Assembly: GCF_013248995.1 (NCBI RefSeq)
Contig: NZ_JABRPK010000002.1
Location: forward strand, 620,001 to 684,000
Origin: Frigoribacterium sp. VKM Ac-2836
Lineage (GTDB): Bacteria; Actinomycetota; Actinomycetes; Actinomycetales; Microbacteriaceae
DNA: 64,000 nt
Direction of reading: 5' to 3'
Shown: piece after piece, positions 1,982-62,457 of the stretch
How the letters are laid out: every line of letters starts with the position of its first letter
How positions within the stretch are numbered: position 1 is the stretch's first letter
Made by a program: the position numbers and the translations under genes
The notes under the pieces: generated by a model
Told to the model about the DNA's origin: nothing
Database searches by the model: none
The model's input: only the letters and a program-made list of their open reading frames with translations

Positions 1982-3669
1982 TCCGCCGCCGCCGAGCCTC
2001 CCTGTCGACGGGCGATCCGCTCCGCCTCCACGGCGGGGCGGGCCAGCCCCGAGGAGGCGCGGCGCCGGTCCCCGAGGCCACCGCCCCCGGGCTGCGCACC
2101 GGCTCGTTGCGCCTCCGCACGGTCGTCGCCGTGCTGCTGCTGCTGGCCGTCCTGCTGGCCGCGCTCGCCGTGACGGTCGAGCTCACCCTCGGCCAGCGCC
2201 TCCGCGCCCAGGTCGTCGACCGGCTGTCCGACCGCGCCGCGGCCGCCGCTGCCCTGGTCGGCACGGTGGACGGCGACGAGCTCGCCGACCGGCTCTCGGC
2301 CCAGGGGCTCTCGGTCGTCATCCGCGACGCGAACGGCGACGCCATCGTCGCCGGCCCGAGCCCCGACGAGCTGCGCGACGGTCCGCCCTCGCTCGGCGAT
2401 GGCCCCGGGCGCGGCGGCCCGGCCTCGGGCCTCGACGGCGGACGAGGAGGCGCGGGTACCGACGCCCAGGACGGCACCGGCACCGGCGCGACCGGCACCG
2501 ACTCCCCGACCGGCACCGACTCCGGGGACGCGACCGGCGCCTCCTCGTCCGAGGCGGTCACGGTCAGCTCCTCCGAGGTGCGGAGCGACGACGAGGTGAC
2601 CACGCTCGTGTCGCAGCTGAGCGACGGGTCGACGATCACCCTGACCACGGACTCGCGCTCGGTGGGCGAGACCCTGGTGCAGCTGCGCTGGGTGATGATC
2701 GGCGCCTCCGCGGCGTTCCTGTCGATCGCCGCCGTCGGCCTCGCCCTCGTGGTGCGGGCGACCCTGCGGCCGCTCGACCGGATGACGAGCGTCGCCAGGT
2801 CGATCGCGCACGGCGACCGCGGCCGCCGTCTGCGACCGGCGCGACGCGACACCGAGATCGGGCGGGTCGCCCTCGCCTTCGACGAAATGCTCGACGGCGT
2901 CGAGGGCGCCGAGCGGACGGCCCTCGATGCCGAGATGCGCGTGCGGGCCTTCGTCTCGGACGCCGCGCATGAACTGCGCACCCCCGTGGCCGGGATGCGT
3001 GCCGCGGCCGACACCCTCGTGCGGTCGCCCGGCACGGCCGACGAACGGGAGCGTCTCGCGGCGCACGTGGTGCGCGAGGCCGGGCGCGCCTCCCGGTTGA
3101 TCGACGACATGCTGCTGATGGCCCGCGTCGACCAGGGGCTCTCGCTCGACGTCGCCCCCGTCGACCTCGGGGCGTCGCTGCTCGCCGACGTCGAACGCCA
3201 GCGGCTGCGGCGGCCGTCGCTCGACCTGCGCGTCGTGCTGCCCGACGGGCCGGTCGTGGTCGCCGCCGACGCGGGCCGGGTCTCGCAGATCGTCGGCAAC
3301 CTGGTCGACAACGCGGCCCGGGCGACGGGTGGCGCGGGGCAGGTGACGCTCTGGCTCGACGCGTCCCGGGCCGACCAGGTCGCGGTGCTGGTCTCGGACG
3401 ACGGCCCGGGAGTGCCCGCCGCCGACCGGGAGCGCATCTTCGACCGGCTGGTTCGACTCGACGAGGCCCGTCGATCCGGGGACGGAGGCGCGGGCCTGGG
3501 ACTGCCCATCGCCCGCGGACTCGCCCGCGCCCACGGCGGCGACCTGTTCTGCGAGCAGCCTGGGCCGGGTCGCTCGGGCGCGGTCTTCCGGCTGCTCCTG
3601 CCCGCGTCCCCGAGCACACCGTCGTCGCACCACCGGCTGAGCGAGACACCATCGACAAGCGTGGTGTGA
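1978..3669 (+). CDS. sensor histidine kinase (HAMP, HisKA, HATPase)
   Basis: This 563-residue membrane kinase is the partner of the preceding regulator. Its GTG start overlaps the upstream stop. A long basic N-terminal tail leads to a first membrane helix at about 46-68. An extracytoplasmic region follows and contains a Gly/Thr/Ser/Asp-rich linker of roughly 50 residues, at about 145-195. The second helix is at about 238-260, then a HAMP segment. The H-box D-A-A-H-E-L-R-T-P holds the phospho-accepting His near residue 331. N-box (G-N-L-V-D-N-A) near 440 and G-box (G-A-G-L-G-L-P-I-A-R-G) near 503 are intact. The linker includes a copy of the short repeat GAGGAGGCGCGGGT at 2444-2458, so part of it may be repeat-derived. 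Overall architecture resembles MprB/CutS-type kinases. Confidence 0.93.
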   Translation: MIRRRRASLSTGDPLRLHGGAGQPRGGAAPVPEATAPGLRTGSLRLRTVVAVLLLLAVLLAALAVTVELTLGQRLRAQVVDRLSDRAAAAAALVGTVDGDELADRLSAQGLSVVIRDANGDAIVAGPSPDELRDGPPSLGDGPGRGGPASGLDGGRGGAGTDAQDGTGTGATGTDSPTGTDSGDATGASSSEAVTVSSSEVRSDDEVTTLVSQLSDGSTITLTTDSRSVGETLVQLRWVMIGASAAFLSIAAVGLALVVRATLRPLDRMTSVARSIAHGDRGRRLRPARRDTEIGRVALAFDEMLDGVEGAERTALDAEMRVRAFVSDAAHELRTPVAGMRAAADTLVRSPGTADERERLAAHVVREAGRASRLIDDMLLMARVDQGLSLDVAPVDLGASLLADVERQRLRRPSLDLRVVLPDGPVVVAADAGRVSQIVGNLVDNAARATGGAGQVTLWLDASRADQVAVLVSDDGPGVPAADRERIFDRLVRLDEARRSGDGGAGLGLPIARGLARAHGGDLFCEQPGPGRSGAVFRLLLPASPSTPSSHHRLSETPSTSVV

Positions 3670-3700
3670 TGCTCAGGACGTGGTGCGACGCGCGTCGCAG

Positions 3701-4681
3701 CTAGAGGGCGATGAGCCGTTCGTAGGCGTCGTCGACCCAGGGGTCGACCGTGCGGCGCGAGGCGTCGGCATCGTGCCAGGCGACGATCTGGCGGGCTCCC
3801 TCGGCGAAGGGGGTCCGCGCCTCCCAGCCGGGCACCAGCGCGCGGATCTTCGAGGTGTCGAACACGGCCGGGTGGCTGCGGTCACCGCAGAGGTCGGCCG
3901 TCCACTCGGGGACGGCGTCGGTGAGGACCTGCGTCGTGCGGTGGACGACGTGCAGCGACGCCCCGGCGGCGTCGGCCAGGTCGCGCGCGATCATGTTCCA
4001 GGTGAGCAGCTCGGGCGACATGATGTGGAACGCCTCGCCCAGGGCGCCGGGGTGGCCGAGCAGGCCGACGAAGGCCCGTGCGAAGTCCGCCGAGTGGGTC
4101 AGGGCCCAGAGCGAGGTGCCGTCGCCGTGCAGGACGACGGGGTCGCCGCGTCGCATGCGCTCGATCGTCGTCCAGCCGCCGAGCAACGGCACGTGGGTCT
4201 CGTCGTAGGTGTGCGAGGGCCGGACGACCGTCGCCTGCACCCGCCCCGCGAGGTGCTCGTCGCGCAGCAGGCGTTCGCAGGCGATCTTGTCGCGCGAGTA
4301 CGACCACCACGGGTTGAACAGCGGCGTCGCCTCGGTGATCGGCAACGAGACCGGGGGCTTCTGGTACGCCGAGGCCGAGCCGATGAACACGTACTGGTCG
4401 GTCAGCGGGGCCACGACCCGCAGCATCGACGCGAGCTGGTCGGGCGTGAAGGTCAGGAAGTCGGCGACGGAGTCGAAGCGGCGTCCGTTCAGGGCGGCGA
4501 CCAGCGCCTCCTCGTCCCGGACGTCGGCCACGAGCTGCTCGACACCTGCGGGCACGGGCCGGATCGTGGTGCTGCCGCGGTTCACCACGGTCACGGCCAC
4601 GCCGTCACGCAGGGCCTGCCGTACGACCGAGGCGCTGATCTGCCCGGTGCCGCCGATCACGAGGAGGGACGTCGATGTCAT
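3701..4681 (-). CDS. NAD(P)-dependent epimerase/dehydratase-like protein
   Basis: This is an extended short-chain dehydrogenase/reductase with the N-terminal Rossmann motif L-V-I-G-G-T-G-Q-I-S and a further stretch V-F-I-G-S-A-S-A-Y-Q that matches the Ser/Tyr region of nucleotide-sugar epimerase-like proteins. A degenerate Y-S-R-D-K-I-A segment holds the Y-x3-K catalytic pair. I place the start at the ATG complementary to 4679-4681 (MTSTSLLVIGG). A GTG at 4696 would add five residues. The gene is convergent with the histidine kinase and its neighbours give no pathway clue. The substrate is unknown; many proteins of this type are annotated as NAD-dependent epimerases or reductases. Confidence 0.85.
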   Translation of the reverse strand: MTSTSLLVIGGTGQISASVVRQALRDGVAVTVVNRGSTTIRPVPAGVEQLVADVRDEEALVAALNGRRFDSVADFLTFTPDQLASMLRVVAPLTDQYVFIGSASAYQKPPVSLPITEATPLFNPWWSYSRDKIACERLLRDEHLAGRVQATVVRPSHTYDETHVPLLGGWTTIERMRRGDPVVLHGDGTSLWALTHSADFARAFVGLLGHPGALGEAFHIMSPELLTWNMIARDLADAAGASLHVVHRTTQVLTDAVPEWTADLCGDRSHPAVFDTSKIRALVPGWEARTPFAEGARQIVAWHDADASRRTVDPWVDDAYERLIAL

Positions 4682-4798: not shown

Positions 4799-5629
4799 TC
4801 AGGCCCCGTCGAGCGCGCGACGGGCCGCCCGGACCAGCTCGGGGTCGGTCACGAACCACGAGTCGGTCGACGCCTCGGTGCCGAGCGACACGGTCGACTC
4901 CGGGCGGGACGAGGAGGCGCGCACGGCCTGCGCCCGCTTCGCCGACAGGTGCACGGCGTCGACCCGCGCGGCCACGAGTGCCGGGACGTCACCCAGCTGC
5001 ACCCCGCCCCCGGCCATCACCTGGACGTCGCCGGCGACCTCGACCAGGCGCGGCAGCACCCCCGAGGCCAGGCCCGCCCCGACCGTGGACGCCCCGCCCG
5101 AGGTCAGCACCCGCGTGACGCCGATCCCCGAGAGGGCCGCGACGGCCGCCACCGGGTCGGCCGCGCGATCGACGGCCCGGTGCACGGTGATCTCGAGCGC
5201 CGACACCCCAGGACGTGGCCGAGACGCCTCGGCGTCGAGCGCGGCCTCGACGAACCAGCGGAGGGCGTCGACGTCGAGCGAGCCGTCGTCGCGCAGCGCA
5301 CCGACGACGACGCCGGCCACGCCCGATCGCACCAACGCCCTGATCTCGCGCACCATGACGTCGAGGTCGTCCGCGTCGTAGACGAAGCCGCCGGGCCGGC
5401 TCCGCACCAGCGCGTGCACGGGCACCCCGGTCGCGACGACCGCCTCGACCAATCCCTGCGACGGGGTGACGCCGCCGAGCTCGAGGGCGCTGCAGAGCTC
5501 GACGCGGTCGGCTCCGCCGTCGCGGGCCGTGACGGCCCCGGCGGCACTCGTCACCGCGATCTCGAGGGCGGGCCTCGCCGGGACGGACTCGGCTGCGGAT
5601 GAGGAGGCGCGGGTCGCGTCATTCGTCAT
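4799..5629 (-). CDS. cutC: CutC-family protein
   Basis: This 276-residue TIM-barrel protein belongs to the CutC family, named for copper homeostasis although its molecular activity remains unsettled. Diagnostic segments are E-L-C-S-A-L-E-L-G-G-V-T-P-S, H-A-L-V-R-S-R-P-G-G-F-V-Y, the H-R-A-V-D strand, V-L-T-S-G-G and M-A-G-G-G-V. The family usually begins close to L-E-I-A-V. Here about 22 extra residues precede it (MTNDATRASSSAAES...), and that extension coincides with a copy of the repeat GAGGAGGCGCGGGT at 5601-5614. The true start may therefore be internal, or the extension may be repeat-derived. The gene is divergent from the acyl-CoA synthetase; the intervening 150 bp holds a perfect inverted repeat. 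Confidence 0.9.
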   Translation of the reverse strand: MTNDATRASSSAAESVPARPALEIAVTSAAGAVTARDGGADRVELCSALELGGVTPSQGLVEAVVATGVPVHALVRSRPGGFVYDADDLDVMVREIRALVRSGVAGVVVGALRDDGSLDVDALRWFVEAALDAEASRPRPGVSALEITVHRAVDRAADPVAAVAALSGIGVTRVLTSGGASTVGAGLASGVLPRLVEVAGDVQVMAGGGVQLGDVPALVAARVDAVHLSAKRAQAVRASSSRPESTVSLGTEASTDSWFVTDPELVRAARRALDGA

Positions 5630-5779: not shown

Positions 5780-7531
<1,752 letters not shown>

Positions 7532-7592: not shown

Positions 7593-7598
7593 GCCGGG

Positions 7599-8873
7599 TC
7601 AGGGGCGGGGCAGTTCGCGGCCGTCGGCCCAGACCCGGGCGACGGTCCAGTCGTCGTGCCACGTCACGGCGTCGGCGGCGTACCCCGGTGCCAGGCGCCC
7701 GAGCGGCGGCCGGGCCCCGGTGCCCGGTGCCCGGCGCCCGAGCACCGTGGCCGGCACCAGCGTCAGCGCCGCGACGGCGTCGACGGCCGAGAGCCCGGTC
7801 CGCGTGAGGGCGGTGCGGAGTGCGGCGTCCTGCGTCAGGGTCGACCCCGCGATCGTCGACGTGCCCGTGAGCGTGGCCACGCCGTGGTCGACCGTCACCG
7901 CCAGTTCGCCGATGCGGTAGTCGCCATCGGCGGCCCCGGCCGCGGCCATGGCGTCGGTGATCAGGGCGACCCGGCGCGGGGCCGAGCGCAGCACGAGGTC
8001 GGCCACGGCCGGGTGGACGTGCACCCCGTCGAGGATCAGCTCGATCGTCACGCGCTCGTCGCCGACCGCCGCGACGAGTGGCCCCGGGTCGCGGTGGTGG
8101 ATGCCGTTCATTGCGTTGAACGCGTGCGTCACGAGCGAGGCGCCCCGGTCGAAGGCCGCGCGGGCCAGGTCGAAGTCGGCCTCGGTGTGTCCGACGGCGG
8201 CGACCACGCCCGAGGTCACGAGTCGGTCGATCGCGTCGAGTCCGCCGGGCAGCTCCGGCGCGATGGTGACCTGCCGCACGATGCCGTCGCCGGCCTCGAG
8301 CAGGCTCTCGACCGTGGCCGCGTCGGGTTCGAGCAAGAAGTGCGGGGCGTGGGCTCCTCGTCGGTCCGGGGCCAGGAACGGCCCCTCGAGGTGCGCCCCG
8401 AGCACGAGTGGGTCACGGCGCATCAGGTCGCCGACCAGCCCGAGCGACCGGGACAGCACCGGCACCGGGTTCGCGACCAGGCTCACCAACGACCGGGTCG
8501 TGCCGTGCCGTCGGTGCAGGGCGAGACCCGCGTCGAGGTCGTCGGGCCCGCCATCGAAGGCGTGCCCACCGCCGCCGTGCGTGTGCAGGTCGATCAGCCC
8601 CGGGGTGAGCGTCGCGCCCGCGAGGTCGACCGTGACCTCCGCCGGGGGCGGCACCGCGCCTCCTGCGGTCGGGTCGTCGGTCGCACCCCGCGTCGACGTC
8701 GCCGAGGAGGCGCGGGTCGCGTCGACCCCGCCCCTCACCCCGCCCGCGGCGCGCGACCCCGGCACGGTGGCACCGGTGGCGACGATGAGGTCGCCGTCGA
8801 CGAGCATCCAGAAGCCGTCGACCTCGCCGTCGGCGTCGACCTTGCGGGCGTTCGTGAAGAGCGTGGTGGTCAT
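7599..8873 (-). CDS. nagA: N-acetylglucosamine-6-phosphate deacetylase
   Basis: This amidohydrolase-superfamily enzyme deacetylates GlcNAc-6-phosphate to glucosamine-6-phosphate in amino-sugar recycling. Visible family signatures are P-G-L-I-D-L-H-T-H-G-G-G-G, the metal and substrate region G-A-H-L-E-G-P-F-L, V-G-H-T-E-A, T-H-A-F-N-A-M and the catalytic Asp region L-I-T-D-A-M-A-A-A-G. Between the N-terminal β-sandwich (about residue 35) and the barrel there is a low-complexity stretch of roughly 45 residues (about 40-85). It is bounded by two facing copies of the GGAGGCGCGG repeat (8652-8665 and 8704-8717), which is atypical for NagA. The ATG start overlaps the stop of the YrdB-like gene upstream. 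Confidence 0.93.
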   Translation of the reverse strand: MTTTLFTNARKVDADGEVDGFWMLVDGDLIVATGATVPGSRAAGGVRGGVDATRASSATSTRGATDDPTAGGAVPPPAEVTVDLAGATLTPGLIDLHTHGGGGHAFDGGPDDLDAGLALHRRHGTTRSLVSLVANPVPVLSRSLGLVGDLMRRDPLVLGAHLEGPFLAPDRRGAHAPHFLLEPDAATVESLLEAGDGIVRQVTIAPELPGGLDAIDRLVTSGVVAAVGHTEADFDLARAAFDRGASLVTHAFNAMNGIHHRDPGPLVAAVGDERVTIELILDGVHVHPAVADLVLRSAPRRVALITDAMAAAGAADGDYRIGELAVTVDHGVATLTGTSTIAGSTLTQDAALRTALTRTGLSAVDAVAALTLVPATVLGRRAPGTGARPPLGRLAPGYAADAVTWHDDWTVARVWADGRELPRP

Positions 8874-9422: not shown

Positions 9423-10310
9423 CTAGCGGAAGACGATGGTGCGGGCGCCGTCGAGCAGCACCCGGTCTTCGGCGAACCAGCGGACGGCCTGGGTCAGGGT
9501 GCGGCTCTCTTCGTCCTGCCCGATGGCCATCAGCTCGGGCGCGCTGCGGGTGTGGTCGACCCGCACGACGTTCTGCTCGATGATCGGCCCCTCGTCGAGG
9601 TCGCTCGTGACGAAGTGCGCCGTGGCGCCGATCAGCTTCACGCCGCGAGCGTGCGCCTGACGATACGGATTCGCGCCCTTGAAACCGGGCAGGAACGAGT
9701 GGTGGATGTTGATCGCCCGCCCCTCGAGGGCAGCACAGAGCTCGGGGCTGAGGATCTGCATGTAGCGCGCCAGCACGACCAGCTCGATGTCGTACCGGTC
9801 GACGACCTGCAGCACCCGCGCCTCGAACGCCGCCTTGGACTCGGGGTCGGTGACGGGGTGGTGCTCGAACCGCTTGCCGTAGAACTCGGCGAGACCCGAG
9901 AGGTCGTCGTGGTTGGCCAGGATCAGCGGCACCTCGATCGGCAGGTGCCCGGCCCGCTGCCGGAACAGCAGGTCGTTGACGCAGTGGGCCGCCTTGCTCG
10001 CGAGGACGAGCGTCCGGGTCGGGCGGCCGACCACGTCGAGCTTCGCCTGGACGTCGTAGTGCGCGAGCACGGGGGCCAGCGCCGCTTCGAACGCGTCGCG
10101 CTCGCCGGGTGCCTCGACCTGCAGGCGCATGAAGAACGTGCCGGTGTCGTGGCTCGAGAACTGCGCCGACTCGGTGATGTTGCCGCCGGCCTGCACGACG
10201 GCGCCGCTGATCGCGTGCACGATGCCCGGCTGGTCCTGGCAGACGAGTGTCAACGTCCAGTGCGTCGTCGAGGAGGCGGGAACGGAGGAGGCGCGGGTGG
10301 CGTCGGTCAC
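9423..10310 (-). CDS. purU: formyltetrahydrofolate deformylase
   Basis: PurU hydrolyses 10-formyl-THF to formate and THF, balancing one-carbon units and supplying formate to purine synthesis. An N-terminal ACT domain (about residues 17-95) contains L-V-C-Q-D-Q-P-G-I-V. The formyltransferase-fold domain follows and shows Y-M-Q-I-L-S-P, the catalytic I-N-I-H-H-S-F-L-P-G-F-K-G and T-S-D-L-D-E-G-P-I-I-E-Q. Length (295) is close to that of the family. The GTG start gives a 15-residue extension (MTDATRASSVPASS) ahead of the ACT domain. The extension coincides with a GGAGGCGCGG repeat at 10285-10298, just as in CutC. Confidence 0.95.
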   Translation of the reverse strand: MTDATRASSVPASSTTHWTLTLVCQDQPGIVHAISGAVVQAGGNITESAQFSSHDTGTFFMRLQVEAPGERDAFEAALAPVLAHYDVQAKLDVVGRPTRTLVLASKAAHCVNDLLFRQRAGHLPIEVPLILANHDDLSGLAEFYGKRFEHHPVTDPESKAAFEARVLQVVDRYDIELVVLARYMQILSPELCAALEGRAINIHHSFLPGFKGANPYRQAHARGVKLIGATAHFVTSDLDEGPIIEQNVVRVDHTRSAPELMAIGQDEESRTLTQAVRWFAEDRVLLDGARTIVFR

Positions 10311-10350: not shown

Positions 10351-10767
10351 TCAGTACGACGAGACGAGCAACGTGACGAGGGCCACGAGCGGCAGGACTC
10401 CCTGCGTGAGGGCGGCACGGGTCTTCGTGCGGTCCGAGAGCAACAGCACGAGCGCGGCGGCCAGCATCGACCCCGTGCCGACGACGACGAGTGCGTTGCC
10501 CGACGGGGACGCCTCGAAGGCGCTGCCCGCGCCTCCGACCCCACCGGCCACGATCAGGCCGACGCCGACGATCGTGACGACCGCGAGGAACAGGTTGTAG
10601 AACCCCTGATTGAAGGCGAGACCCTTCGTGTGCTCGGCCTGGACGTCGCTGGTGATGCCGAAGGTCGCGCGGACGCGCGGTGTCGGCCAGAGCAACGACT
10701 CCATGACGAAGATGTAGACGTGCAGGAGGGCAGCGAGCGAGGCCGCGACGAGCGAGACGATGAGCAT
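10351..10767 (-). CDS. DUF1304 membrane protein
   Basis: This 138-residue protein has four predicted hydrophobic helices and the DUF1304 hallmarks H-V-Y-I-F-V-M-E-S-L-L-W, followed by K-G-L-A-F-N-Q-G-F-Y-N-L-F-L-A. The conserved His and Glu in the first helix and N-Q-G-x-Y-N in the second are typical. The family is widespread and of unknown function. The ATG start is clear. The gene lies upstream of purU in the same direction with a 40-bp gap, so cotranscription is possible. It is divergent from the CWB2 protein gene. Confidence 0.88.
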   Translation of the reverse strand: MLIVSLVAASLAALLHVYIFVMESLLWPTPRVRATFGITSDVQAEHTKGLAFNQGFYNLFLAVVTIVGVGLIVAGGVGGAGSAFEASPSGNALVVVGTGSMLAAALVLLLSDRTKTRAALTQGVLPLVALVTLLVSSY

Positions 10768-13147: not shown

Positions 13148-13251
13148 GGTCGACGTCGGCCGGGGCGTCCGCACGGCGGGCCGGAGGCCTGCCGTAGCAT
13201 CGTCCGGGGTCGCCGACGGGGCGCCCCAGGGCGAGGACGAGGAGGCGCGGC

Positions 13252-17062: not shown

Positions 17063-18082
17063 GTGTCCACCGTGCACGAGGCGGCGGCAGCGTCGCCGAC
17101 CGCCGGACGAGCCGAGGAGGCGCACCGCGCCTCCTCGGGGGGTCCCGGCTCCGGGCACCGGGTGGGCCGTCGCCGCGACGACGACCCGCGTGGGCGTCGT
17201 CGGGGCGGCCCGCTCGGCAAGCACCCGCTCGGTCTGCTCTTCAGCGCGCCGTACCTGGTGTTCGTGTTGGCGGTGTTCGCGTACCCGTTGGTCTACGCGG
17301 TCTACATCGCCTTCCACGACTACTTCTTCACGGCGCCGGGTGCCGTCGTCGCTCGGCCGTTCGTCGGCCTGGAGAACTTCGTCACCGCGTTCACCGACCC
17401 GGCGGTCATCCGTTCGTTCGGCAACGTCGGCGTCTTTCTGGTGATCAACGTGCCGCTGACGGTCGTACTGAGCATGGTGCTGGCCACGGCGCTCGACAAG
17501 GTGGCGCACTTCCGTGGCTTCTTGCGGGTGGCGTTCTACGTGCCGTATCTGACGGCGAGCGTCGCGGTCGTCGCGGTCTGGCTCTTCTTGTTCAACGGCG
17601 ACGGCCTGGTCAACAACGTGCTCGGGCCACTGGCCCCGACGCCGTCGTGGCTGATCAACTCGGCGTGGGCCATGCCCTCGATCGCGCTGTTCGTCACGTG
17701 GAAGCAGCTCGGCTTCTACATCTTGCTGTACCTCGCGGCGCTGCAGAACGTGCCGAAAGAACTGTACGAGGCGGCCTCGAGCGACGGGGCTGGTCCCATC
17801 CGGTCCTTCTTCACCGTCACCGTGCCGGGTGTCCGGCCGGCCACCGTTCTCGTGCTGCTCGTCTCGACCGTCACGGGAGCGAATCTCTTCACGGAGCCGT
17901 ACCTGCTGACCGGGGGAGGCGGGCCGAACGGCGCGTCGACCTCGCCCGTGTTGCTGATGTACCAGAAGGGCATCGAGCAGGGAAACCCCGACCAGGCCGC
18001 CGCGATCGGCGTCGTGCTCGTGATCCTCGTGCTGGTCATCGCCCTGCTGCAGAACCGGTTCGCCGGCGGAAAGGAGGACTGA
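17063..18082 (+). CDS. ABC sugar permease, MalF-type
   Basis: This membrane permease has six transmembrane helices and the cytoplasmic EAA loop E-A-A-S-S-D-G-A-G-P, which docks the ATPase. A GTG start lies two bases after the stop of the binding protein. The first 50 residues are a hydrophilic, Arg- and Gly-rich tail. Inside this tail, bases 17112-17138 form a perfect 12-bp hairpin made of two facing copies of the GGAGGCGC repeat, encoding E-E-A-H-R-A-S-S. This suggests the tail grew by repeat insertion. The substrate is presumably the glycan product handled by the flanking GH130-like enzymes. Confidence 0.93.
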   Translation: MSTVHEAAAASPTAGRAEEAHRASSGGPGSGHRVGRRRDDDPRGRRRGGPLGKHPLGLLFSAPYLVFVLAVFAYPLVYAVYIAFHDYFFTAPGAVVARPFVGLENFVTAFTDPAVIRSFGNVGVFLVINVPLTVVLSMVLATALDKVAHFRGFLRVAFYVPYLTASVAVVAVWLFLFNGDGLVNNVLGPLAPTPSWLINSAWAMPSIALFVTWKQLGFYILLYLAALQNVPKELYEAASSDGAGPIRSFFTVTVPGVRPATVLVLLVSTVTGANLFTEPYLLTGGGGPNGASTSPVLLMYQKGIEQGNPDQAAAIGVVLVILVLVIALLQNRFAGGKED

Positions 18083-18997: not shown

Positions 18998-19034
18998 GGA
19001 GGCGCGGCGCGCGATCGCCTCGCGCCGCGCCTCC
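18998..19034. repeat. hairpin from two facing GGAGGCGCGG copies
   Basis: Arms GGAGGCGCGGCGCG (18998-19011) and CGCGCCGCGCCTCC (19021-19034) are perfect complements around nine bases. It is located 20 bp after the MalG-type permease stop and 45 bp before the GH130 start. It could attenuate or terminate transcription within the operon, but no T-run follows. Confidence 0.75.
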
Positions 19035-20208: not shown

Positions 20209-22302
20209 ATGATCGCACGCACCTCACGATGGACGGGCGCGGCACTGGCCGCGGCCCTGGCGACCGTGCTGGGGGTGACGGGGGCGCTGCCGGCTGCCGC
20301 CGCGCCTCCTGGTCCGGCGGCTGCGCCGAGCGGCACGGCTGCGCCGGCCGTCCCGCCGGCCGCACCGGCCGTGGCGCCGCTGACGAACCTGGCGCACCTG
20401 GACTTCCTGCTCGACCGGACGACGCCCGCGCCCGAGGCCGGGCACTCGACCTACCGGCAGAGCAGCGAGCCGACGCTCACCCTGCCGTGGACCTACGCCG
20501 ACGCCCGCGACGGCGGCACCTTCGCCCGGGTGGGCGGTGGTCCGCTCGACCCCGCGACCGGGTACTGGGGGCAGGGCGCGTACAACAGCGACGACGTCTC
20601 GCGGACGGCCGTCGTGTACCTGCGCGACTGGAAGCAGACCGGCTCGGAGTCGAGCCGGCAGAAGGCCTACGAGCTGCTGCGGGCGACCGCGTACTTCCAG
20701 ACGACCACCGGTGACGCGGCCGGCAACGTCGTGCTCTGGATGCAGCCCGACGGCACCTTCAACCGCAGCCCGGTGCCCGTCGAGCTGCCCGACCCGTCCG
20801 ACAGCGGCAACAGCTACTGGCTGGCCCGCAGCATCTGGGCATTCGGCGAGGGGTACGCCGCGTTCGCGGACGACGACCCCGAGTTCGCCGCGTTCCTGCA
20901 GCAGCGGCTGCAGCTCGGTGTCACGGCGCTCGAGCGCGAGACCCTCGCCCGCTACGGTCGGTACGACGTGGCCGACGGGGTGACGGTGCCCGCCTGGCTG
21001 ATCGGCTCCGGGGCCGACGCCTCGGCCGAGGCCGTGCTCGGACTGGCCGCCTACTCGGCTCTCGTGCCGGGGGACGCGGCTCCGCGCACCGCGCTGACGC
21101 AGCTCTCCGAGGGCGTCGCCGCGATGTCGTCCGGCGACGGGCAGACCTGGCCGTACGGTGCCGTGCTGCCCTGGGCGAAGTCCCGCTCGATGTGGCACGC
21201 CTGGTCGTCGCAGATGCCCGTCGCCCTGGCCCGTGCGTCGACCGTGCTCGGCCGACCCGACCTGCTGAAGCCCGCGGTGCTCGACCAGACCTCGTTCACG
21301 ACGACGCTGCTCACCGCGAGCGGGCCCGACAACGCCTGGTACCCGACGCCCGTCGACCAGACGCAGATCGCCTACGGCGCCGACTCGCGGCTGCAATCGG
21401 CCCTCGCCGTGGCGTCGGCGTCGGGTGCGCCGGGCCTGAAGCGGATCGCGGCCGTCACCGCGAGCTGGTACTTCGGCACGAACCGCTCGGGCACCCCCGT
21501 GTACGACCCCGCCACGGGCGTGACCTTCGACGGGGTGCAGGCCGACGGCACGGTGAACCGCAACAGCGGCGCCGAGAGCACGATCCACGGTCTCTTGTCG
21601 ATGATCGCGCTGGACGGCGCCCCCGACGTCTCGGCCGAGGCGCAGGGGCTGACGAGCGTCACCTCGCGTGACGGCCTCACGGTGGTCGAGGCCGAGACGG
21701 CGGCACCGTCCACGGGCACGGTCGTCACCCCCGACTCGGCCTGGACGGGCGAGTCGCAGTACAGCGGCGGCTCGGCCCTGCGGCTCGAGCCCGGGCAGAG
21801 CGCGACGATCACGGTGCCCGCTGGCTCCGGCCTGCGGCACGTCGAGCCGGTGCTGCTCGCCGCCGAGGGAGTGTGGTCGACGTCGGTCTGGAAGGCGGGA
21901 CGCGTGCCCCTCGGGACGCTGACGACGCAGGCCGGAGCGCAGGGCGTGACCGCCGCCTCCGGGGCGCTGCTTCCCCAGACGCTGCCGGTGCCGATCGGTG
22001 CGGGGGCGACCACGATCACCGTGACCGCCGGGCGCAACGCGACCGTGGTCGACGGCCTGATCGTGCGACCGCTCGTCCAGCGGCTCGTTCTCGGTGGCAC
22101 GGCGGCCGACGGGCGGTCGACGACGACCGAGCTGCTGTCGTCGACCTCGCGGCTGCCCTTGCCGGCCTCGGTCGGTGTGCGCGGCACCCGTTCGTCGGTG
22201 TCGTCGTACGACGCGCAGGGCCGACTCGTGCAGCAGCGCGACGTGCAGGGCCGCAGTGTGGTGGTCGTGAAGCCCGGGGGCTTCGCCGTCCTCACCCGCT
22301 GA
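20209..22302 (+). CDS. secreted helical-toroid glycan-active protein
   Basis: Last gene of the operon, encoding 697 residues. AAGGAGG precedes the ATG. A signal peptide ends near A-A-A-A-P and is followed by a Pro/Ala linker (about 30-55). Residues about 65-470 are Trp/Tyr-rich, with helical repeats such as G-Y-W-G-Q-G-A-Y-N-S-D-D, S-Y-W-L-A-R-S-I-W-A-F-G-E-G-Y and W-P-Y-G-A-V-L-P-W, resembling (α/α)6-toroid glycosidases or lyases. From about 480 a β-sandwich begins V-V-E-A-E-T-A, as in CBM6/35-like modules. No sortase motif is seen. It probably cuts the polymer outside the cell to feed the importer. I cannot name a GH family with confidence. Confidence 0.8.
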   Translation: MIARTSRWTGAALAAALATVLGVTGALPAAAAPPGPAAAPSGTAAPAVPPAAPAVAPLTNLAHLDFLLDRTTPAPEAGHSTYRQSSEPTLTLPWTYADARDGGTFARVGGGPLDPATGYWGQGAYNSDDVSRTAVVYLRDWKQTGSESSRQKAYELLRATAYFQTTTGDAAGNVVLWMQPDGTFNRSPVPVELPDPSDSGNSYWLARSIWAFGEGYAAFADDDPEFAAFLQQRLQLGVTALERETLARYGRYDVADGVTVPAWLIGSGADASAEAVLGLAAYSALVPGDAAPRTALTQLSEGVAAMSSGDGQTWPYGAVLPWAKSRSMWHAWSSQMPVALARASTVLGRPDLLKPAVLDQTSFTTTLLTASGPDNAWYPTPVDQTQIAYGADSRLQSALAVASASGAPGLKRIAAVTASWYFGTNRSGTPVYDPATGVTFDGVQADGTVNRNSGAESTIHGLLSMIALDGAPDVSAEAQGLTSVTSRDGLTVVEAETAAPSTGTVVTPDSAWTGESQYSGGSALRLEPGQSATITVPAGSGLRHVEPVLLAAEGVWSTSVWKAGRVPLGTLTTQAGAQGVTAASGALLPQTLPVPIGAGATTITVTAGRNATVVDGLIVRPLVQRLVLGGTAADGRSTTTELLSSTSRLPLPASVGVRGTRSSVSSYDAQGRLVQQRDVQGRSVVVVKPGGFAVLTR

Positions 22303-22412: not shown

Positions 22413-22943
22413 ATGATCACCTCGGATGTCGGTTCTCGTCTGCGGGAGGCGCGGGTCGCCGCGCAGCTCACACAGGGCGAGGTGGGGCGGAGGGCAGGGC
22501 TGCCGCAGAGCGCCGTCTCGAGGTACGAGAACGGCTCGAAGACCCCGTCGTTGCCCGTGCTCGAGCGTCTCTTCGAGGCGTCAGGCCTCGACCTGGCGCT
22601 CACGCTCATGCCGTCTTGTCCTCGGACGTCCACGACCGTGTCCCCGTTCGTCGGGCCCGTAGGGCGCAGCGTGCAACCACATCGTGCCGAACTGAGATCG
22701 TTCTTCGCGCACGAGGGGTTCGGCTCGCCCCAGGTCTTCGGCAGCGTCAGCCGAGGCGACGACCGCGCCGACAGCGACCTCGACGTCGTCGTCGACCTGC
22801 CCGACGGCCTCGGGTTGTTCGGGCTGGCGGCGGCTGCGCGTCGGGCAAGCGACATCGCCGGGGTCGTGGTCGACGTCGTGCCCCGCGACGGCCTGACCCC
22901 CGAGGTCGCCGAGGCGGTCTCGCGGGACGGCGTCGCCCTGTGA
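22413..22943 (+). CDS. HTH-MNT antitoxin (MntA-like nucleotidyltransferase fused to Xre HTH)
   Basis: This 176-residue protein joins an N-terminal Cro/CI-type helix-turn-helix (about 8-62; L-T-Q-G-E-V-G-R-R-A-G-L-P-Q-S-A-V-S-R-Y-E-N-G) to a minimal nucleotidyltransferase domain. The MNT active-site signature GSx10DxD is complete, with Gly110, Ser111, Asp122 and Asp124. In MntA/HepT systems the MNT antitoxin silences the HEPN toxin by AMPylating it near its active site; that activity is inferred here. The added HTH should allow the antitoxin to repress its own promoter. Its stop overlaps the toxin GTG start. Translation is apparently leaderless. Confidence 0.87.
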   Translation: MITSDVGSRLREARVAAQLTQGEVGRRAGLPQSAVSRYENGSKTPSLPVLERLFEASGLDLALTLMPSCPRTSTTVSPFVGPVGRSVQPHRAELRSFFAHEGFGSPQVFGSVSRGDDRADSDLDVVVDLPDGLGLFGLAAAARRASDIAGVVVDVVPRDGLTPEVAEAVSRDGVAL

Positions 22944-23263: not shown

Positions 23264-23303
23264 CGCGCTCCGCGGACGAGGAGGCGCGGGTACGGTCGAG
23301 CGC

Positions 23304-23549: not shown

Positions 23550-23619
23550 CGCGGGGTGCTGGTCGGCGGGCCGTCCGCGGCGGCCGGCCCGCGCCTCCTC
23601 GGCACCTCCCGCGGCCCGT

Positions 23620-27751: not shown

Positions 27752-27767
27752 CTGACCGTGGGCGGCG

Positions 27768-41293: not shown

Positions 41294-41595
41294 GCCTCGT
41301 CCTCTTTCGAGAGCGTCGCCCAGAGTCCGTAGTCGTGCATGGCCTCGACGTGACGTTCCATCTCTTCGCGGTTGCCCGTCGCGACGACCGCGCGGCCCTC
41401 GGTGTGCACGCGCATCATGAGTCGCTTCGCCTCGGCCCGACCGAAGCCGAAATAGCTCTCGAAGACGTGGGTGACGTAGGTCATCAGGTTGACCGGGTCG
41501 TCCCAGACCAGCGTCACCCAGGGGGTGTCGGGCGAGGTCAGGAGGCGCGGGTCGGCCTCCGTTCCCGTGCGGGTGTCGTCGAGGGTGAGGCTCAC
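41290..41595 (-). CDS. clpS: ATP-dependent Clp protease adaptor ClpS
   Basis: ClpS delivers N-degron substrates to the ClpA/ClpC unfoldase. The 101-residue protein has the family core [17 protein letters not shown], the helix [12 protein letters not shown] and the final E-M-E-R-H-V-E-A-M. Asn in D-D-P-V-N and the following hydrophobic pocket residues are kept. A GTG start begins the frame. The disordered N-terminal tail overlaps a CAGGAGGCGCGGGT repeat at 41539-41552. Confidence 0.93.
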
Positions 41596-44036: not shown

Positions 44037-44051
44037 CGCCCTCCCGCCACG

Positions 44052-44105: not shown

Positions 44106-44155
44106 TGCGGTGCGGTGCGGTGCCGTGCCCGGCGCGGGCGCGGGGCAGCCCGGTG

Positions 44156-46540: not shown

Positions 46541-47407
46541 GTGAACGGCAACTCGACCCCGCCCGTGGCTGCGCGGCCCGCACCGCTGCCGGGCGAGCGT
46601 CGGCGGGACCGCATCGCCGACCTCGTCGGGCGCCGCGGGTTCGTGCGGACGGCCGAGCTGGCGCGCGAGTTCCGCTTGTCCGAGGTGACGATCCGCACCG
46701 ACCTCGAGAGCCTCGCGGCCGACGGTCTGCTGTCGCGCGTTCACGGTGGTGCGTTGTCGGTCGACCGGCCTGCCGAGCGTCCGTTCGAAGAAGAGAGCTC
46801 GGTCTCGACCGAGGCCAAGCGGGCCATCGGGGTCGAGGCCGCGTCGCTCGTGCGTTCGGGTGACTGCGTCGTGCTCGACGTCGGCACGACGACCACGCAG
46901 ATCGCGCTGGCCCTGCTCGAACGTCACGACCTCGAGGGGGTCGTGGTCGTGACGAACGGTCTCACCATCGCCCTGGCGCTCGAGCAGGCGGTGCCGCGGT
47001 TCACGGTGATCGTGTCGGGCGGCACGCTCCGACCCCTGCAGCACTCGCTGGTCAACCCGCTGGCGACGAGCGTGTTCGCGAGCGTCACGGCCGACCTGGC
47101 GTTCATCGGCTGCACCGGCGTCCACGCGACCCACGGCGTCACGAACGTCAACCTGCCCGAGACCGATCTCAAGCGCCTCATGACCCAGACCGCCCGTCGG
47201 TCGTACATCGTGGCCGACGGCAGCAAGCTCGGCGAGGCCCACCTGGGTGTAATCGGGCCGCTCGACACCTTCGAGGGCCTCGTCACGGCGGGGGCCGACG
47301 CCGCCCGTGTCGACGAGCTGCGTCGAGCCGGCCTCGCCGTCGTGACCGCAGGAGGCGCGGGCGAGGTCGCCGCGCCTCCTCGCGACCCTGCCCCCTCGCG
47401 TCCGTGA
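46541..47407 (+). CDS. DeoR-family transcriptional regulator of galactose genes
   Basis: The 288-residue regulator has the DeoR HTH (about 20-70: R-R-D-R-I-A-D-L-V, V-R-T-A-E-L-A-R-E-F-R-L-S-E-V-T-I-R-T-D-L) followed by G-A-L-S-V and the sugar-phosphate-sensing DeoRC domain (V-L-D-V-G-T-T-T-T-Q-I, V-V-T-N-G-L, V-S-G-G-T-L). It starts at a GTG. The last 20 residues (G-G-A-G-E-V-A-A-P-P-R-D-P) are written by two facing repeats at 47351-47379 and look like an added tail. It is divergent from galTK and followed by galM, so it is probably the local galactose regulator; effector may be a sugar phosphate. Confidence 0.9.
   Translation: MNGNSTPPVAARPAPLPGERRRDRIADLVGRRGFVRTAELAREFRLSEVTIRTDLESLAADGLLSRVHGGALSVDRPAERPFEEESSVSTEAKRAIGVEAASLVRSGDCVVLDVGTTTTQIALALLERHDLEGVVVVTNGLTIALALEQAVPRFTVIVSGGTLRPLQHSLVNPLATSVFASVTADLAFIGCTGVHATHGVTNVNLPETDLKRLMTQTARRSYIVADGSKLGEAHLGVIGPLDTFEGLVTAGADAARVDELRRAGLAVVTAGGAGEVAAPPRDPAPSRP
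47351..47379. repeat. facing GGAGGCGCGG pair inside the DeoR 3' end
   Basis: GGAGGCGCGG (47351-47360) and CCGCGCCTCC (47370-47379) form a hairpin with a nine-base loop. It is in frame and encodes the non-conserved C-terminal tail of the DeoR-family protein, ending 28 bp before its stop. Confidence 0.75.
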
Positions 47408-48948: not shown

Positions 48949-49107
48949 GTGCGCGTCCACTTTACGGGATGCCGCGGCTCCTGGACGCCAGGCCGACCCG
49001 CGCCTCCTCGGTGTGGTCGAGCGTCGGGGGGCCCCGACGGGGGCCGGTGGTGGTGCCGTGGGCGAACGTGCGGCTCGGTGTCGGTGGGCGCGCCTATCGT
49101 GGGTTCG

Positions 49108-49949: not shown

Positions 49950-50314
49950 GCACCCTCTTCTCGCGAGACGAGTCCGTGGTCTAGAGCCCGGCGTGACGAC
50001 CTACCGCCGCCCGCCTCTCCTGCGCACCCCGCGCCTCCTCGTCCCCGCCTGCGTGTGCACATCGCGACGACGGGACAGCGTCCGACGGCTACAGATGGAA
50101 GATGAGCGGCGCGTCGAGGCCCGGCTGTCGGGTCTTGCACGCATGTCGAACTGCGAGCGGTCGGGTTCGGCCCAGAGCCCTGACCCGGCGTCACGACCAC
50201 AAGCGAATGTTCGTCCAATCCACCGGGCCGCCGGTGCCGAACCATTGACGTGAGGGATCCACGATCCTCCGCCGACATCCGTCCTCCCTAGGTCTCGGGC
50301 GTCGGCGGGTCGGT

Positions 50315-50478: not shown

Positions 50479-51075
50479 ATGCTCAAGCTCGTGACCCGAG
50501 AGACAGAGACACCCGATTCCGGGCCCACCCCGTCGACTCCCGACGCATTGTTGCCGCGAGTCGCACAGGGCGACCAGGTCGCCTTCGCCGAGTTGTACGA
50601 CCAGACGGCGCCCCGAGTGCTCGGCCTGGTGAAGCGGCTCCTCAAGGACCATGCCCAGTCAGAGGAAGTGACCCAAGAGGTCTTCCTCGAGATCTGGCAG
50701 AACGCCACGCGCTTCGACTCCACCCGGGGCAGTGCGGCCAGCTGGATGCTCACGATGGCGCACCGCCGCGCCGTCGACCGTATCCGCGCCTCCCAGGCCG
50801 GTCGCGACCGCGACCTCAAGATCGGCGTGCGTGACCTCGAGACCGACTACGACTCGGTCACCGAGTCCGTCGAGATCCGCATCGAGCACGAGCGGGTCGA
50901 GCGGGCCCTCGGGCGCCTCACCGAACTGCAGCGTCAGGCGGTGAAGCTCGCCTACTACGGCGGCCTCAGCCACAGTGAGGTCGCGAAACTGTTGGACGTG
51001 CCGATCGGCACGGTCAAGACCAGACTGCGCGACGGAATGATCCGTCTGCGCGACGAGATGGGGGTGGCATCGTGA
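50479..51075 (+). CDS. sigK: ECF RNA polymerase sigma factor SigK
   Basis: The 198-residue protein has ECF region 2 (V-A-F-A-E-L-Y-D-Q-T-A-P-R-V-L-G-L, E-V-T-Q-E-V-F-L-E-I-W-Q and W-M-L-T-M-A-H-R-R-A-V-D) and region 4 (L-Q-R-Q-A-V-K-L-A-Y-Y-G-G-L-S-H-S-E-V-A-K-L-L-D-V-P-I-G-T-V-K-T-R). This matches SigK, whose regulon in mycobacteria includes secreted antigens and which is held by the anti-sigma factor RskA encoded next door. ATG at 50479 with GGAGG 12 bases upstream; a GTG at 50455 is an alternative. The stop overlaps the rskA start. Confidence 0.92.
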   Translation: MLKLVTRETETPDSGPTPSTPDALLPRVAQGDQVAFAELYDQTAPRVLGLVKRLLKDHAQSEEVTQEVFLEIWQNATRFDSTRGSAASWMLTMAHRRAVDRIRASQAGRDRDLKIGVRDLETDYDSVTESVEIRIEHERVERALGRLTELQRQAVKLAYYGGLSHSEVAKLLDVPIGTVKTRLRDGMIRLRDEMGVAS

Positions 51076-52007
51076 CCGACCACGACGAGCCCACGCGCGG
51101 CCGCCATGCGGACGACGCGGGCAGCACGAACGTCGACACCGACAACCTGTCCGGTGCCTACGTGCTCGATGCACTGAGCGACGACGAACGACAGGCGTTC
51201 GAGGCCCTCCTCGACGACACATCAGACCAGCACGACGACACCAGGACGGAGGTGGGCGAATTGAGAGAGACCGCACTACTGCTCGCCCACGCGGCTCGGC
51301 CCGTCATGCCCTCGGCCGAGCTCCGCGCCAGCGTGCTCGACCTCATCGCGTCGACGCCGCAGCTCGCGCCGCTCACGGCGACGGCATCGACGGCAGACCA
51401 CGACATCGCGACGACGACCGCAGGAGGCGCGGGTGACGACGACCACGAGCGTCGCGTCGAGCGCACCCCGGCCCCCGAGATGGAGCCGAGCGAGTCCGAG
51501 GGTGCCCGCGTGCTCCACGCGTCCGGTGCCGCGCACCGGCGCTGGTTCACGCGTCCGGTCGCCGTGCTCGGAGCGGCCGCCGCGGCCGCTGCGCTCTTCT
51601 TCGGCGGCGGAGCCCTCGTCGAGGGTCTCGGCCAGACGGGTCAGCAGCAACAGCAACAGGCCTCCGGCGTGGACGAGATCTACGCCGCGAGCGACTTCCA
51701 ACGCTCGGTGGCCGATGTCAGCACCGGCGGCAAGGCGACGCTCATCTGGTCCGACGAGCTCGGTCGCTCGGCGGTCGTCGTCGACGGCATGACGTCGCTG
51801 CCCGGTGACCAGACCTACGAGTTCTGGTACATCAACGGCGACGGCGCCGTGCCCGCGGGCACCTTCGACGCCGCGTCGAGCGCCCCGGCAACGCACCTCC
51901 TCAAGGGTGAGATGGCCCCGGGCGACACGATCGGCATCACGGTCGAGCCCTCGGGTGGATCGTCGACGCCGACCAGCGACCCGGTCGTCGTCATCCCCAG
52001 CGCCTGA
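51072..52007 (+). CDS. rskA: anti-sigma-K factor RskA
   Basis: RskA spans the membrane once and sequesters SigK until cleaved. The 311-residue protein has an N-terminal cytoplasmic anti-sigma domain (L-S-G-A-Y-V-L-D-A-L-S-D-D-E-R-Q-A-F-E), one hydrophobic helix at about 160-182 (P-V-A-V-L-G-A-A-A-A-A-A-A-L-F-F), a Gln run, and an extracytoplasmic RskA domain (S-D-F-Q-R-S-V-A-D, Q-T-Y-E-F-W-Y-I and G-D-T-I-G-I-T-V-E-P-S-G-G-S). The linker before the helix contains a CAGGAGGCGCGGGT copy at 51421. GTG start overlaps sigK. Confidence 0.93.
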   Translation: MTDHDEPTRGRHADDAGSTNVDTDNLSGAYVLDALSDDERQAFEALLDDTSDQHDDTRTEVGELRETALLLAHAARPVMPSAELRASVLDLIASTPQLAPLTATASTADHDIATTTAGGAGDDDHERRVERTPAPEMEPSESEGARVLHASGAAHRRWFTRPVAVLGAAAAAAALFFGGGALVEGLGQTGQQQQQQASGVDEIYAASDFQRSVADVSTGGKATLIWSDELGRSAVVVDGMTSLPGDQTYEFWYINGDGAVPAGTFDAASSAPATHLLKGEMAPGDTIGITVEPSGGSSTPTSDPVVVIPSA

Positions 52008-52090: not shown

Positions 52091-52150
52091 TGTTCGCACC
52101 GCCGTCGTGCGGCGTGCGGCCCCCTCGCCCCGAGGAGGCGCGGTGCCCGA

Positions 52151-56393: not shown

Positions 56394-56500
56394 AGGGGGG
56401 AACATCGGCCGGGACACGCGCGTCCCGACAGCGGTCGCCCCCCGCCCATCACGGGTGGGGGGCAACGATCCTGCTGCCGGGTGAGCCGAGGAGGCGCGGG

Positions 56501-61529: not shown

Positions 61530-61626
61530 GTCGCCCCCTCGATCGCTGTCATCCTATCGGCAGGATATCAGTGGACCGGATCAGCGAGCGCCCCCCGATC
61601 GAGAAAGGATCGTGGGTGGGTGGGAC

Positions 61627-62457
61627 TCAGCGCGAGAGCGTGTACTGCACGTCGACCGCGTGGTCCGTGAACCCCCGGGCGGCGTAGAGCCGCAGGGCGG
61701 CCGTGTTGTCGCCTTCGACGTAGAGCGCCGCGGTGCGGGCCCCCCGCTCGGCGAGGCGGGCGAACCCGGCGTCGACCACCGCGCCTCCGAGGCCCTCGCC
61801 CTGGTGGTCGGGCGAGACGCCGACCGCATAGAACTCGCCGGGCTGGCCCTCGTCGAGCTTCAACCAGCAGAACGCCAGCAGTTCGTCGTCGCGCCAGAGC
61901 AGGACGAAGTCGTCGGCGTCGAACCACGGCTCGGCCCGCCGGGCGTCGAGGTCGGACTGGGCGAGGGAGCCCTGCTCGGGGTGGTCGGCGAACGCCCGGG
62001 AGTTGAGATCGAGCCAGGCCCGGTCGTCGACTCCCGGTCGGAAGGAGGCGACCCGGTCGCCGTCACGGAGGCGGGGCGCGCGGGGCTCGGTTGCCACGGG
62101 CGCGCGCTGTTGCAGCAGGCGCCGCGTCTCGACGAGGCCGAAGCGCGCGGCGAGCACACGAGAGCCCGGGTGGTCGCCGTGGGCCCAGAGCAGCAGCGGC
62201 CCCCGGGTCTCGTCGACGAGACGTTGCACCAGCTCGGCACCGCGACCCTGGCGGCGGTCGTCGGGGTGCACGACCAGTTCGGCCTCACCGTCGCGCAGCA
62301 CCGCCGCGGCGTGCGGGTCGCCGACGACGGTCGCCACGCCCGACCGGACGTCGACCAGGGACTGGTCGGAGAACGGCGGGCTGCCGTCCGCCTCGGTCGC
62401 CGCGCGCGCGAGCACCGGAACGAAGGAGGCGCCGGTCGAGTCGGTCGAGCCCGTCAC
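61627..62457 (-). CDS. mshD: mycothiol synthase
   Basis: MshD acetylates Cys-GlcN-Ins with acetyl-CoA in the last step of mycothiol synthesis, so the organism makes this actinobacterial thiol. The 276-residue protein has two GNAT domains: a degenerate first with H-P-D-D-R-R-Q-G-R-G-A-E-L-V, and an active second with the Y-A-V-G-V-S-P-D-H-Q-G-E-G-L-G acetyl-CoA loop, N-T-A-A-L-R-L-Y-A-A-R-G-F and the final V-D-V-Q-Y-T-L. GTG start 13 bp after the glnR stop, so both are likely cotranscribed. Confidence 0.92.
   Translation of the reverse strand: MTGSTDSTGASFVPVLARAATEADGSPPFSDQSLVDVRSGVATVVGDPHAAAVLRDGEAELVVHPDDRRQGRGAELVQRLVDETRGPLLLWAHGDHPGSRVLAARFGLVETRRLLQQRAPVATEPRAPRLRDGDRVASFRPGVDDRAWLDLNSRAFADHPEQGSLAQSDLDARRAEPWFDADDFVLLWRDDELLAFCWLKLDEGQPGEFYAVGVSPDHQGEGLGGAVVDAGFARLAERGARTAALYVEGDNTAALRLYAARGFTDHAVDVQYTLSR

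Follow-up and report, generated by a model that had tools for sequence, protein, structure and literature searches.

The window analysed here is a 64,000-nucleotide stretch of the genome of Frigoribacterium sp. VKM Ac-2836 (G000:C3:620001-684000, where G000 is the window's genome), with a G+C content of 71.7%. One short word, GGAGGCGCGG, is scattered over its genes and gaps in 41 exact copies, the two strands combined, and is the commonest 10-mer of the window. Only 1.6, 0.6 and 2.7 copies are expected under first-, third- and fifth-order Markov models, respectively; models of order 6 or higher expect 12 to 40, and such models absorb the word itself. The initial annotation, which had described about forty copies on both strands, was accurate: all 40 positions that it listed are correct within 4 bases, and one minus-strand copy, at 50784, had been left out. 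Our own gene calling places 28 copies in genes and 13 in gaps. The further statement in that annotation that, a few copies in conserved protein motifs aside, the motif is found in gaps, linkers and tails therefore fails, although gaps and gene ends are indeed enriched.

The excess extends over the whole genome. The 3,273,901 bases of G000 contain 1354 copies of GGAGGCGCGG, 684 and 670 on the two strands, compared to 52 (22 and 30) for the reversed word, which serves as a rough control. Markov expectations were computed solely for sequence in hand; in a 464-kb sample, composed of the window plus further stretches of G000, 232 copies were found versus 4.5 expected under a third-order model, and the exact word reaches 48 times its second-order expectation. 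The genome count against a Markov model that had been proposed as a check on the motif thus came out far above expectation.

Like the window's genome, all 15 other Frigoribacterium genomes (16 of 16 in total) are rich in GGAGGCGCGG, with 842–1725 copies each. Nine other Microbacteriaceae genera contain 5–59 copies and 15 other families of the order 8–120, none clearly above the reversed word. Among 150 genomes of the family, clear enrichment was observed in g1 (three of three drawn), in g47 (688 and 673 copies versus 107 and 118 for the control) and in one of two g70 genomes (399 versus 142; the other has 133 versus 98). Inspection of the rest of the 150-genome table by eye revealed no genome with at least 20 copies at 1.5 times the control. 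The word is exceptionally overrepresented in the window's species and its relatives; it is strong in one genus, weaker in two other genera and close to chance in the rest. The FolD protein encoded in the window is 97% identical to those of Frigoribacterium sp. PhB24, Leaf8 and Leaf186. One record named Frigoribacterium sp. CG_9.8 (L088) shows 71% FolD identity, no GGAGGCGCGG and one core word AGGAGGCGC in 21 kb; its name may be wrong, and it may belong to a different genus.

To follow the motif between species, 20 copies of the core AGGAGGCGC at 33–53 kb of the window were aligned with the 15 relatives. In six relatives of 88–92% identity, 111 of the 115 alignable copies are unchanged, compared to 50–55% of the flanking 9-mers; in the nine relatives near 80% identity, the values are 33–64% for the copies and 10–21% for the flanks. 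Expected differences were calculated from base-specific rates in a codon-aware manner, and the counts are not independent because the species share ancestry. Among the six close relatives, none of the 243 third codon positions in the motif differ (64.8 expected); differences are present at 7 of 313 non-coding positions (38.2 expected) and 1 of 486 first and second codon positions (11.6 expected). Among the nine far relatives, 37 of 223 third codon positions (86.9 expected), 37 of 187 non-coding positions (38.8 expected) and 57 of 450 first and second positions (41.5 expected) differ. Near 80% identity, the intergenic sites are unprotected and positions turn over, with the density unchanged. 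As a control, we took 66 frequent 9-mers of the stretch, the motif included; their median ratio of observed to expected differences is 0.58, and that of the motif is 0.07 (expectation 103). Two 9-mers with ratios below that of the motif overlap it. When three species were compared with each other, the motif was kept in 110 of 124 cases, the flanks in 324 of 690 and the control word CGTCGACG in 36 of 61. The comparison of orthologous loci, also proposed in the initial annotation, thus revealed protection at the DNA level that is independent of the protein in close species.

In the 464-kb sample, 151 of the 232 copies (65%) lie wholly in genes, 79 are intergenic and 2 are on gene edges, by our own gene caller. 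Intergenic DNA makes up 12.5% of the sample, so the motif is 2.7-fold enriched there. The copies also lean towards gene ends. In genes of at least 450 nt, 48 of 144 GGAGGCGCGG copies are no more than 100 nt away from a start or stop, where 18% is expected (p ∼1e-5); 24 are near the start and 24 near the stop, with 9.1% expected for each. For AGGAGGCGC, it is 49 of 168 (23 start, 26 stop). Facing pairs, in which the word is followed by its complement within 100 bp, number 13 for GGAGGCGCGG and 20 for AGGAGGCGC, compared to about 2.8 and 3.6 by chance; back-to-back AGGAGGCGC pairs (9) are also raised and same-direction pairs (3) are not. Three IMG/VR contigs (L201, L202 and L203) have one facing pair each, with 2–4 copies of GGAGGCGC in 4.4–9.5 kb. 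The copies of the window are listed in Table 1.

Table 1. Exact GGAGGCGCGG copies and facing AGGAGGCGC hairpins in the window; placement in or between genes follows our own gene caller, no annotation being used
Feature	Position	Strand	Remarks
motif copy	2053..2062	+	in gene
motif copy	2446..2455	+	in gene
motif copy	3484..3493	+	in gene
motif copy	3815..3824	-	in gene
motif copy	5603..5612	+	in gene
motif copy	6373..6382	-	in gene
motif copy	8654..8663	-	in gene
motif copy	8706..8715	+	in gene
motif copy	10287..10296	+	in gene
motif copy	10527..10536	-	in gene
motif copy	13241..13250	+	intergenic
motif copy	17125..17134	-	intergenic; second arm of hairpin 17115-17135
motif copy	18998..19007	+	intergenic; facing 19025 copy
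motif copy	19025..19034	-	intergenic; facing 18998 copy
motif copy	20300..20309	-	in gene
motif copy	22445..22454	+	intergenic
motif copy	23280..23289	+	intergenic
motif copy	23589..23598	-	intergenic
motif copy	24269..24278	+	in gene
motif copy	27743..27752	-	intergenic, convergent genes either side
motif copy	28265..28274	+	in gene
motif copy	29072..29081	-	in gene
motif copy	29194..29203	+	in gene
motif copy	31478..31487	-	in gene
motif copy	31796..31805	+	in gene
motif copy	32484..32493	+	intergenic
motif copy	33445..33454	-	in gene
motif copy	35572..35581	+	in gene; facing 35617
motif copy	35617..35626	-	in gene; facing 35572
motif copy	36949..36958	+	in gene
motif copy	38638..38647	+	in gene
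motif copy	41541..41550	+	in gene; AGGAGGCGC core from 41540 intact in 15/15 relatives
motif copy	47351..47360	+	in gene; facing 47370
motif copy	47370..47379	-	in gene; facing 47351
motif copy	48998..49007	-	intergenic
motif copy	50029..50038	-	intergenic
motif copy	50784..50793	-	in gene; absent from the initial list
motif copy	51423..51432	+	in gene
motif copy	52134..52143	+	intergenic, convergent genes either side
motif copy	56490..56499	+	intergenic, adjoining stop end of - gene
motif copy	61779..61788	-	in gene
facing AGGAGGCGC cores, hairpin	17115..17135	n/a	-26.5 kcal/mol, no shuffle control; downstream of + gene ending at 17060
facing AGGAGGCGC cores, hairpin	34187..34218	n/a	-43.3 kcal/mol; between convergent genes, the right-hand one a doubtful 41-aa call

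The word has a sharp core, AGGAGGCGC, with small species variants. In the 464-kb sample, single mismatches at positions 1–8 of GGAGGCGCGG were seen 131 times, versus ∼122 expected (our sum). Positions 9 and 10 are relaxed, with 144 variants versus ∼24 expected, including T at position 9 (35 versus 2.2). Over all ten positions, there are 275 one-mismatch copies (∼147 expected) to 232 perfect ones. The core is preceded by A in 68% of the coding and 78% of the intergenic copies; weaker preferences are for C at −4 and −3 and for G, G/T, C and G after the core, and flank conservation fades about 7–8 bases from the core. The edges differ between species. In clade A (G005, G009, G010, G013, G014 and G015), A at −1 (152 versus 10.3) and C at position 8 are kept; G at position 8 is also accepted in G008/G012 (101 versus 21.5) and G001/G011 (58 versus 15.6). 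Position −1 is relaxed in G004 and in F. endophyticum (G007), where A, C, G and T were seen 34, 51, 38 and 18 times, compared to 7.4, 20.0, 11.5 and 5.3 expected. With four motif-poor stretches left out (L136 and L137 of G001, L139 and L140 of G007), the density of GGAGGCGC is 0.84–1.21 per kb in all Frigoribacterium groups compared. L136 and L137 contain 3 and 4 copies, versus 22 and 16 in the adjoining L134 and L135; L139 and L140 contain 7 and 8, versus 28 and 24 in L138 and L141. The L136-L137 region (G001:C7:140001-180000) is 66% in G+C and encodes a heavy-metal ATPase, an antiporter subunit and an enolase.

These features were compared with those of known iterated words. In the parts of the literature available, sequence-specific uptake is described in Neisseriaceae and Pasteurellaceae, both of which bear an outer membrane; as far as its accessible text goes, a 2025 review states that bacteria generally take DNA of any source, Neisseria being an exception (PMC12236230). 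According to the available text of PMC1939737, 65% of the uptake sequences in H. influenzae and 35% of those in N. gonorrhoeae are intragenic, and uptake sequences are in excess outside genes, form inverted repeats in about 10% of cases and show no orientation bias on the chromosome; those of Pasteurellaceae lean to gene termini and prefer one orientation in reading frames, as stated in the accessible part of PMC2346458. Like these uptake signal sequences (USS) of Pasteurellaceae, the Frigoribacterium word shows a 65% share in genes, the non-coding excess, the inverted repeats, the absence of orientation bias and the lean to termini. Different from USS, it has no sense or antisense preference in genes. 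USS also carry extended AT-rich flanks, which are absent here.

Like the DNA uptake sequences (DUS) of Neisseriaceae, as described in the available text of PMC3630211, the word is short and non-palindromic, has about 1000 or more copies and forms dyad-symmetry structures; DUS dialects share a core, and among Frigoribacterium species the edge variants are at −1 and 8. The same text gives 1.15–1.45 one-mutation copies per DUS in Neisseria (PMC3630211), a range near the all-position ratio of 275 to 232 in our sample. In contrast to the DUS case, copies with a single mismatch in the first eight positions occur close to the chance level here, and the host is a monoderm actinobacterium of 72% G+C. 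Chi sites are likewise exact, short, overrepresented and lineage-specific words; unlike Chi, our motif has no strand polarity in two tested blocks. HIP1 of cyanobacteria, a highly iterated short palindromic word of unclear role, resembles it in iteration, but our word is not palindromic.

All 16 Frigoribacterium species possess ComEC. In G000, a ComEA-type protein (SLBB plus helix-hairpin-helix) adjoins ComEC with a 4-base overlap. A type IVa pilus locus (C3:483375-496413) encodes PilB- and PilT-type ATPases, PilC, a prepilin peptidase, PilM, PilO and three prepilin-like proteins, in which the N-methylation motif is above the Pfam cut-off in one and below it in two. A third ATPase, at C1:389125, is followed by a Flp-pilin-like open reading frame (ORF) with the site G/AATAEY and by TadE-like ORFs, which were judged by eye against the processing site in PMC4322843. 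TadA-like matches, weak and in the PilT model, were found in 16 of 16 species, and PilT is above cut-off in 13 of 16. Like Frigoribacterium, Micrococcus luteus has comEA/comEC together with tad/flp genes, and its transformation requires Flp/Tad pili according to the accessible part of PMC4322843; the term 'uptake sequence' occurs zero times in the text of that paper. Two Microbacteriaceae, Rhodoluna and Aurantimicrobium, are naturally transformable, as stated in the available text of PMC11577799. In L187 (9782-13267), a 1161-residue ComEC frame continues into a match to the C-terminal region of DNA polymerase III delta (residues 1036–1150), which would fit either a comEC-holA fusion or a misread end.

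Taken together, these observations describe a real, non-polar and protected DNA word that is present throughout the genus and has most of the genome signature of uptake sequences; judged by that signature, it appears to work like one. On balance we favour the reading that AGGAGGCGC(G/T)G serves Frigoribacterium as a DNA-uptake-type signal, one that biased uptake and recombination maintain in the genus. In such a system, a putative competence surface receptor would bind word-bearing DNA better than other DNA; the route inwards would be a Tad/Flp pilus, a type IVa pilus or both, followed by ComEA and ComEC. Word-bearing fragments would enter and recombine more often, so that the alleles carrying the word would spread and decayed copies would be replaced. 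Over time, the word would be seeded on both strands at any site where it is tolerated by proteins and RNAs, chiefly in gaps, gene ends and permissive frames, and facing pairs with strong hairpins may have been reused at gene ends as transcription terminators. Among the roles suggested in the initial annotation, that of a protein-binding site finds support, and a recombination signal would fit if it is taken as an uptake signal feeding recombination.

Several points weigh against an uptake signal. Decayed copies at positions 1–8 (131, versus 232 perfect) are fewer than we would expect an uptake drive to leave. The reading direction in genes is unbiased (71 sense versus 80 antisense), and the copies are not convincingly more evenly spaced than at random, the result being borderline for AGGAGGCGC (5% of simulations) and not significant for GGAGGCGCGG. 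Two coding-only words have an even lower ratio of observed to expected differences than the motif (0 versus 16.7 and 1 versus 15.9), and the control word CTCGGCGA is kept in 72 of 91 cases among the three species. ComEC is found in 108 of 110 family genomes; being near universal, its presence discriminates little, and we dropped it as a discriminating partner of the motif. PilT is below cut-off in G002, G003 and G006, which carry 1421, 1562 and 1415 copies, so a type IVa pilus seems not to be needed for motif upkeep and is unsupported as a necessary partner; under an uptake model, the likelier route would be by the Tad pilus or by ComEA. The accessible text of PMC1939737 argues against uptake sequences serving as terminators. 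In the available portions of the literature, we found no Frigoribacterium uptake, binding or transformation data, and no uptake sequence for actinobacteria or Frigoribacterium.

As the strongest competitor of an uptake signal, the word may be bound inside the cell by a non-polar chromosome protein (nucleoid-associated, compacting or repair-related), with ordinary purifying selection acting at each site. The virtual lack of copies decayed within the first eight positions, the strong protection in close species, the persistence of the motif without PilT and the roughly random spacing all agree with it. However, binding sites usually tolerate mismatches, and we know of no chromosome protein with more than 1000 exact 10-bp sites. 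Such a protein does not predict the gene-end bias or the facing hairpin pairs, and the word, strong in a single genus and weaker in one or two others, has edges that vary by species. We consider this explanation unlikely, if still a serious one.

Polar signals of the Chi type or of the KOPS type (FtsK-orienting polar sequences), acting in RecBCD/AdnAB-type processing or in segregation, would share with our motif the exact-word recognition, the genus restriction, the high copy number and the motif-poor stretches. Chi and KOPS are polar, but the strands are balanced here, with 62/62 and 54/54 copies in blocks of 264 and 200 kb, nor do sub-blocks of 66 kb show any large imbalance; the counts reject a 70:30 bias at ∼2e-10. 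The strand check suggested by the initial annotation was thereby carried out on two blocks, counted by strand and not against a mapped origin, and it revealed no polarity. This balance speaks against polar signals, so the polar types of the chromosome-organising or recombination signal put forward in that annotation are disfavoured, and a Chi- or KOPS-like role is very improbable.

The word could also be primarily an RNA element, a terminator or processing hairpin, with single copies as by-products. For 18 facing AGGAGGCGC pairs spaced within 60 bp, the folded hairpins range from −25.6 to −54.5 kcal/mol, with no shuffle control. Of these pairs, 7 are in genes and 11 in intergenic gaps (8 tandem, 3 convergent, 0 divergent); the lack of divergent cases does not reach significance on its own. 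One of the 18 has a five-T run behind it. In the hairpin at 34187..34218, 4 of 5 alignable close relatives retain the left core and 6 of 6 the right core. Copies in facing pairs, however, amount to 26 of 232 for GGAGGCGCGG and 40 of 261 for AGGAGGCGC (∼11–15%), and most copies are single and in genes, which makes a primary RNA role barely plausible.

A functionless mutational or codon-usage effect, or Shine-Dalgarno- or EEAR-type coding words, is scarcely credible. The word does contain GGAGG and reads Glu-Glu-Ala-Arg in one frame, and some frequent coding words are comparably conserved. However, coding copies occur in both orientations and in all six frames (34, 1 and 36 sense; 17, 15 and 48 antisense), five of them in number, the nearly empty one being the frame that requires an in-register AGG codon. 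The intergenic excess, the unenriched single mismatches at positions 1–8 and the few copies in sister genera of similar G+C (Curtobacterium) and in most family members do not fit either; the frame spread and the single-mismatch counts led us to reject a coding or Shine-Dalgarno artefact. Equally hard to credit is the dispersed mini-repeat of the initial annotation, spread by a transposase in the manner of repetitive extragenic palindromes (REP) and REP-associated tyrosine transposases (RAYT): the copies are dispersed on both strands and often near gene ends, but information drops close to the core, with no longer unit of conserved flanks, and most copies are inside genes rather than extragenic.

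Other words in the family suggested that GGATGC-type dialects may exist and that one word could have been replaced by another. Recurrent GGATG-type words exceed the Markov expectation in Agrococcus (GCGGATGCG), Salinibacterium (CGGATGCC) and a Microbacteriaceae bin (AGCGGATGT), and CAGGATCCG recurs in one Frondihabitans locus (L058). The loci with GGATG-type or GGATCC-type words are L086 and L089-L092 of Agrococcus, L071, L074, L075 and L077 of Salinibacterium, L070 and L058; the Agrococcus and Salinibacterium counts repeat within each genus because the loci are orthologous. Of 110 family genomes, 48 contain GCGGATGC at least three times as often as its reversed form (e.g. 1817 versus 198 and 991 versus 86), and this excess is absent in g1 (328 versus 412; 368 versus 503), g47 and g70; in G000, both GCGGATGC and its reversed control are twofold over Markov expectation. 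A tentative extension, which we regard as doubtful, is that sequence-tagged uptake is family-wide in Microbacteriaceae, with dialects evolving around a GGA-K-GC core, GCGGATGC-type words, carried by many genera, replaced by AGGAGGCGC in Frigoribacterium and partly so in one or two other genera, and the words read by a receptor of the monoderm competence machine.

Genera without GGAGGCGCGG that also have no GCGGATGC excess (e.g. g5, G074, G076, G079, G080 and G125) argue against replacement, and a simple replacement story fails to cover the family. Family dialects are further opposed by the comparison of GCGGATGC with PilT among the 110 family genomes, five GGAGGCGC-type genomes being left out. 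The GCGGATGC ratio is not tied to PilT: the medians are 3.5 with it (50 genomes) versus 2.4 without it (55 genomes; p 0.08), and p is 0.37 among genomes of at least 2.5 Mb (46 versus 34). Nor are the candidate words better conserved than controls, GCGGATGC being conserved in 57 of 75 cases in Agrococcus (control word, 52 of 70) and CGGATGCC in 38 of 41 in Salinibacterium (control, 16 of 17). In Curtobacterium, GGAGGCCC occurs 58 times versus 10.3 expected in nine orthologous, hence non-independent, loci; it was rejected as a dialect, being kept between species in 6 of 32 cases versus 75 of 219 for flanking words (four of the nine loci).

The window contains other repeated features. A tandem run with a 5-base period, comprising 13 overlapping CAGCCCAGCCCAGC matches, lies at 31356-31429, between genes as we called them. 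Overlapping half matches point to a 20-bp palindrome, GATCCGGTACGTACCGGATC, at 9308-9327, 23620-23639 and 23673-23692, with a half copy at 34128-34138, all in gaps by our gene calls. Directly after folD (∼44040-44130), the alignments to relatives break and resume, the relative having ∼100 to 700 additional bases, a pattern that insertion or loss of a segment would leave.

If the word is not an uptake signal, it would be a protein site that is spread over the whole chromosome, strictly specific and subject to turnover at genus level, of which we know no described example. If it is one, this would suggest that self-tagging arose a further time, with a different pilus, in a single-membrane actinobacterium, and Frigoribacterium would offer an environmental organism, not known to us to be pathogenic, for finding the receptor and for testing uptake bias versus selection as the keeper of the sites. 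Should the family-wide extension be true, it would be the first self-DNA tagging system of monoderm bacteria known to us.

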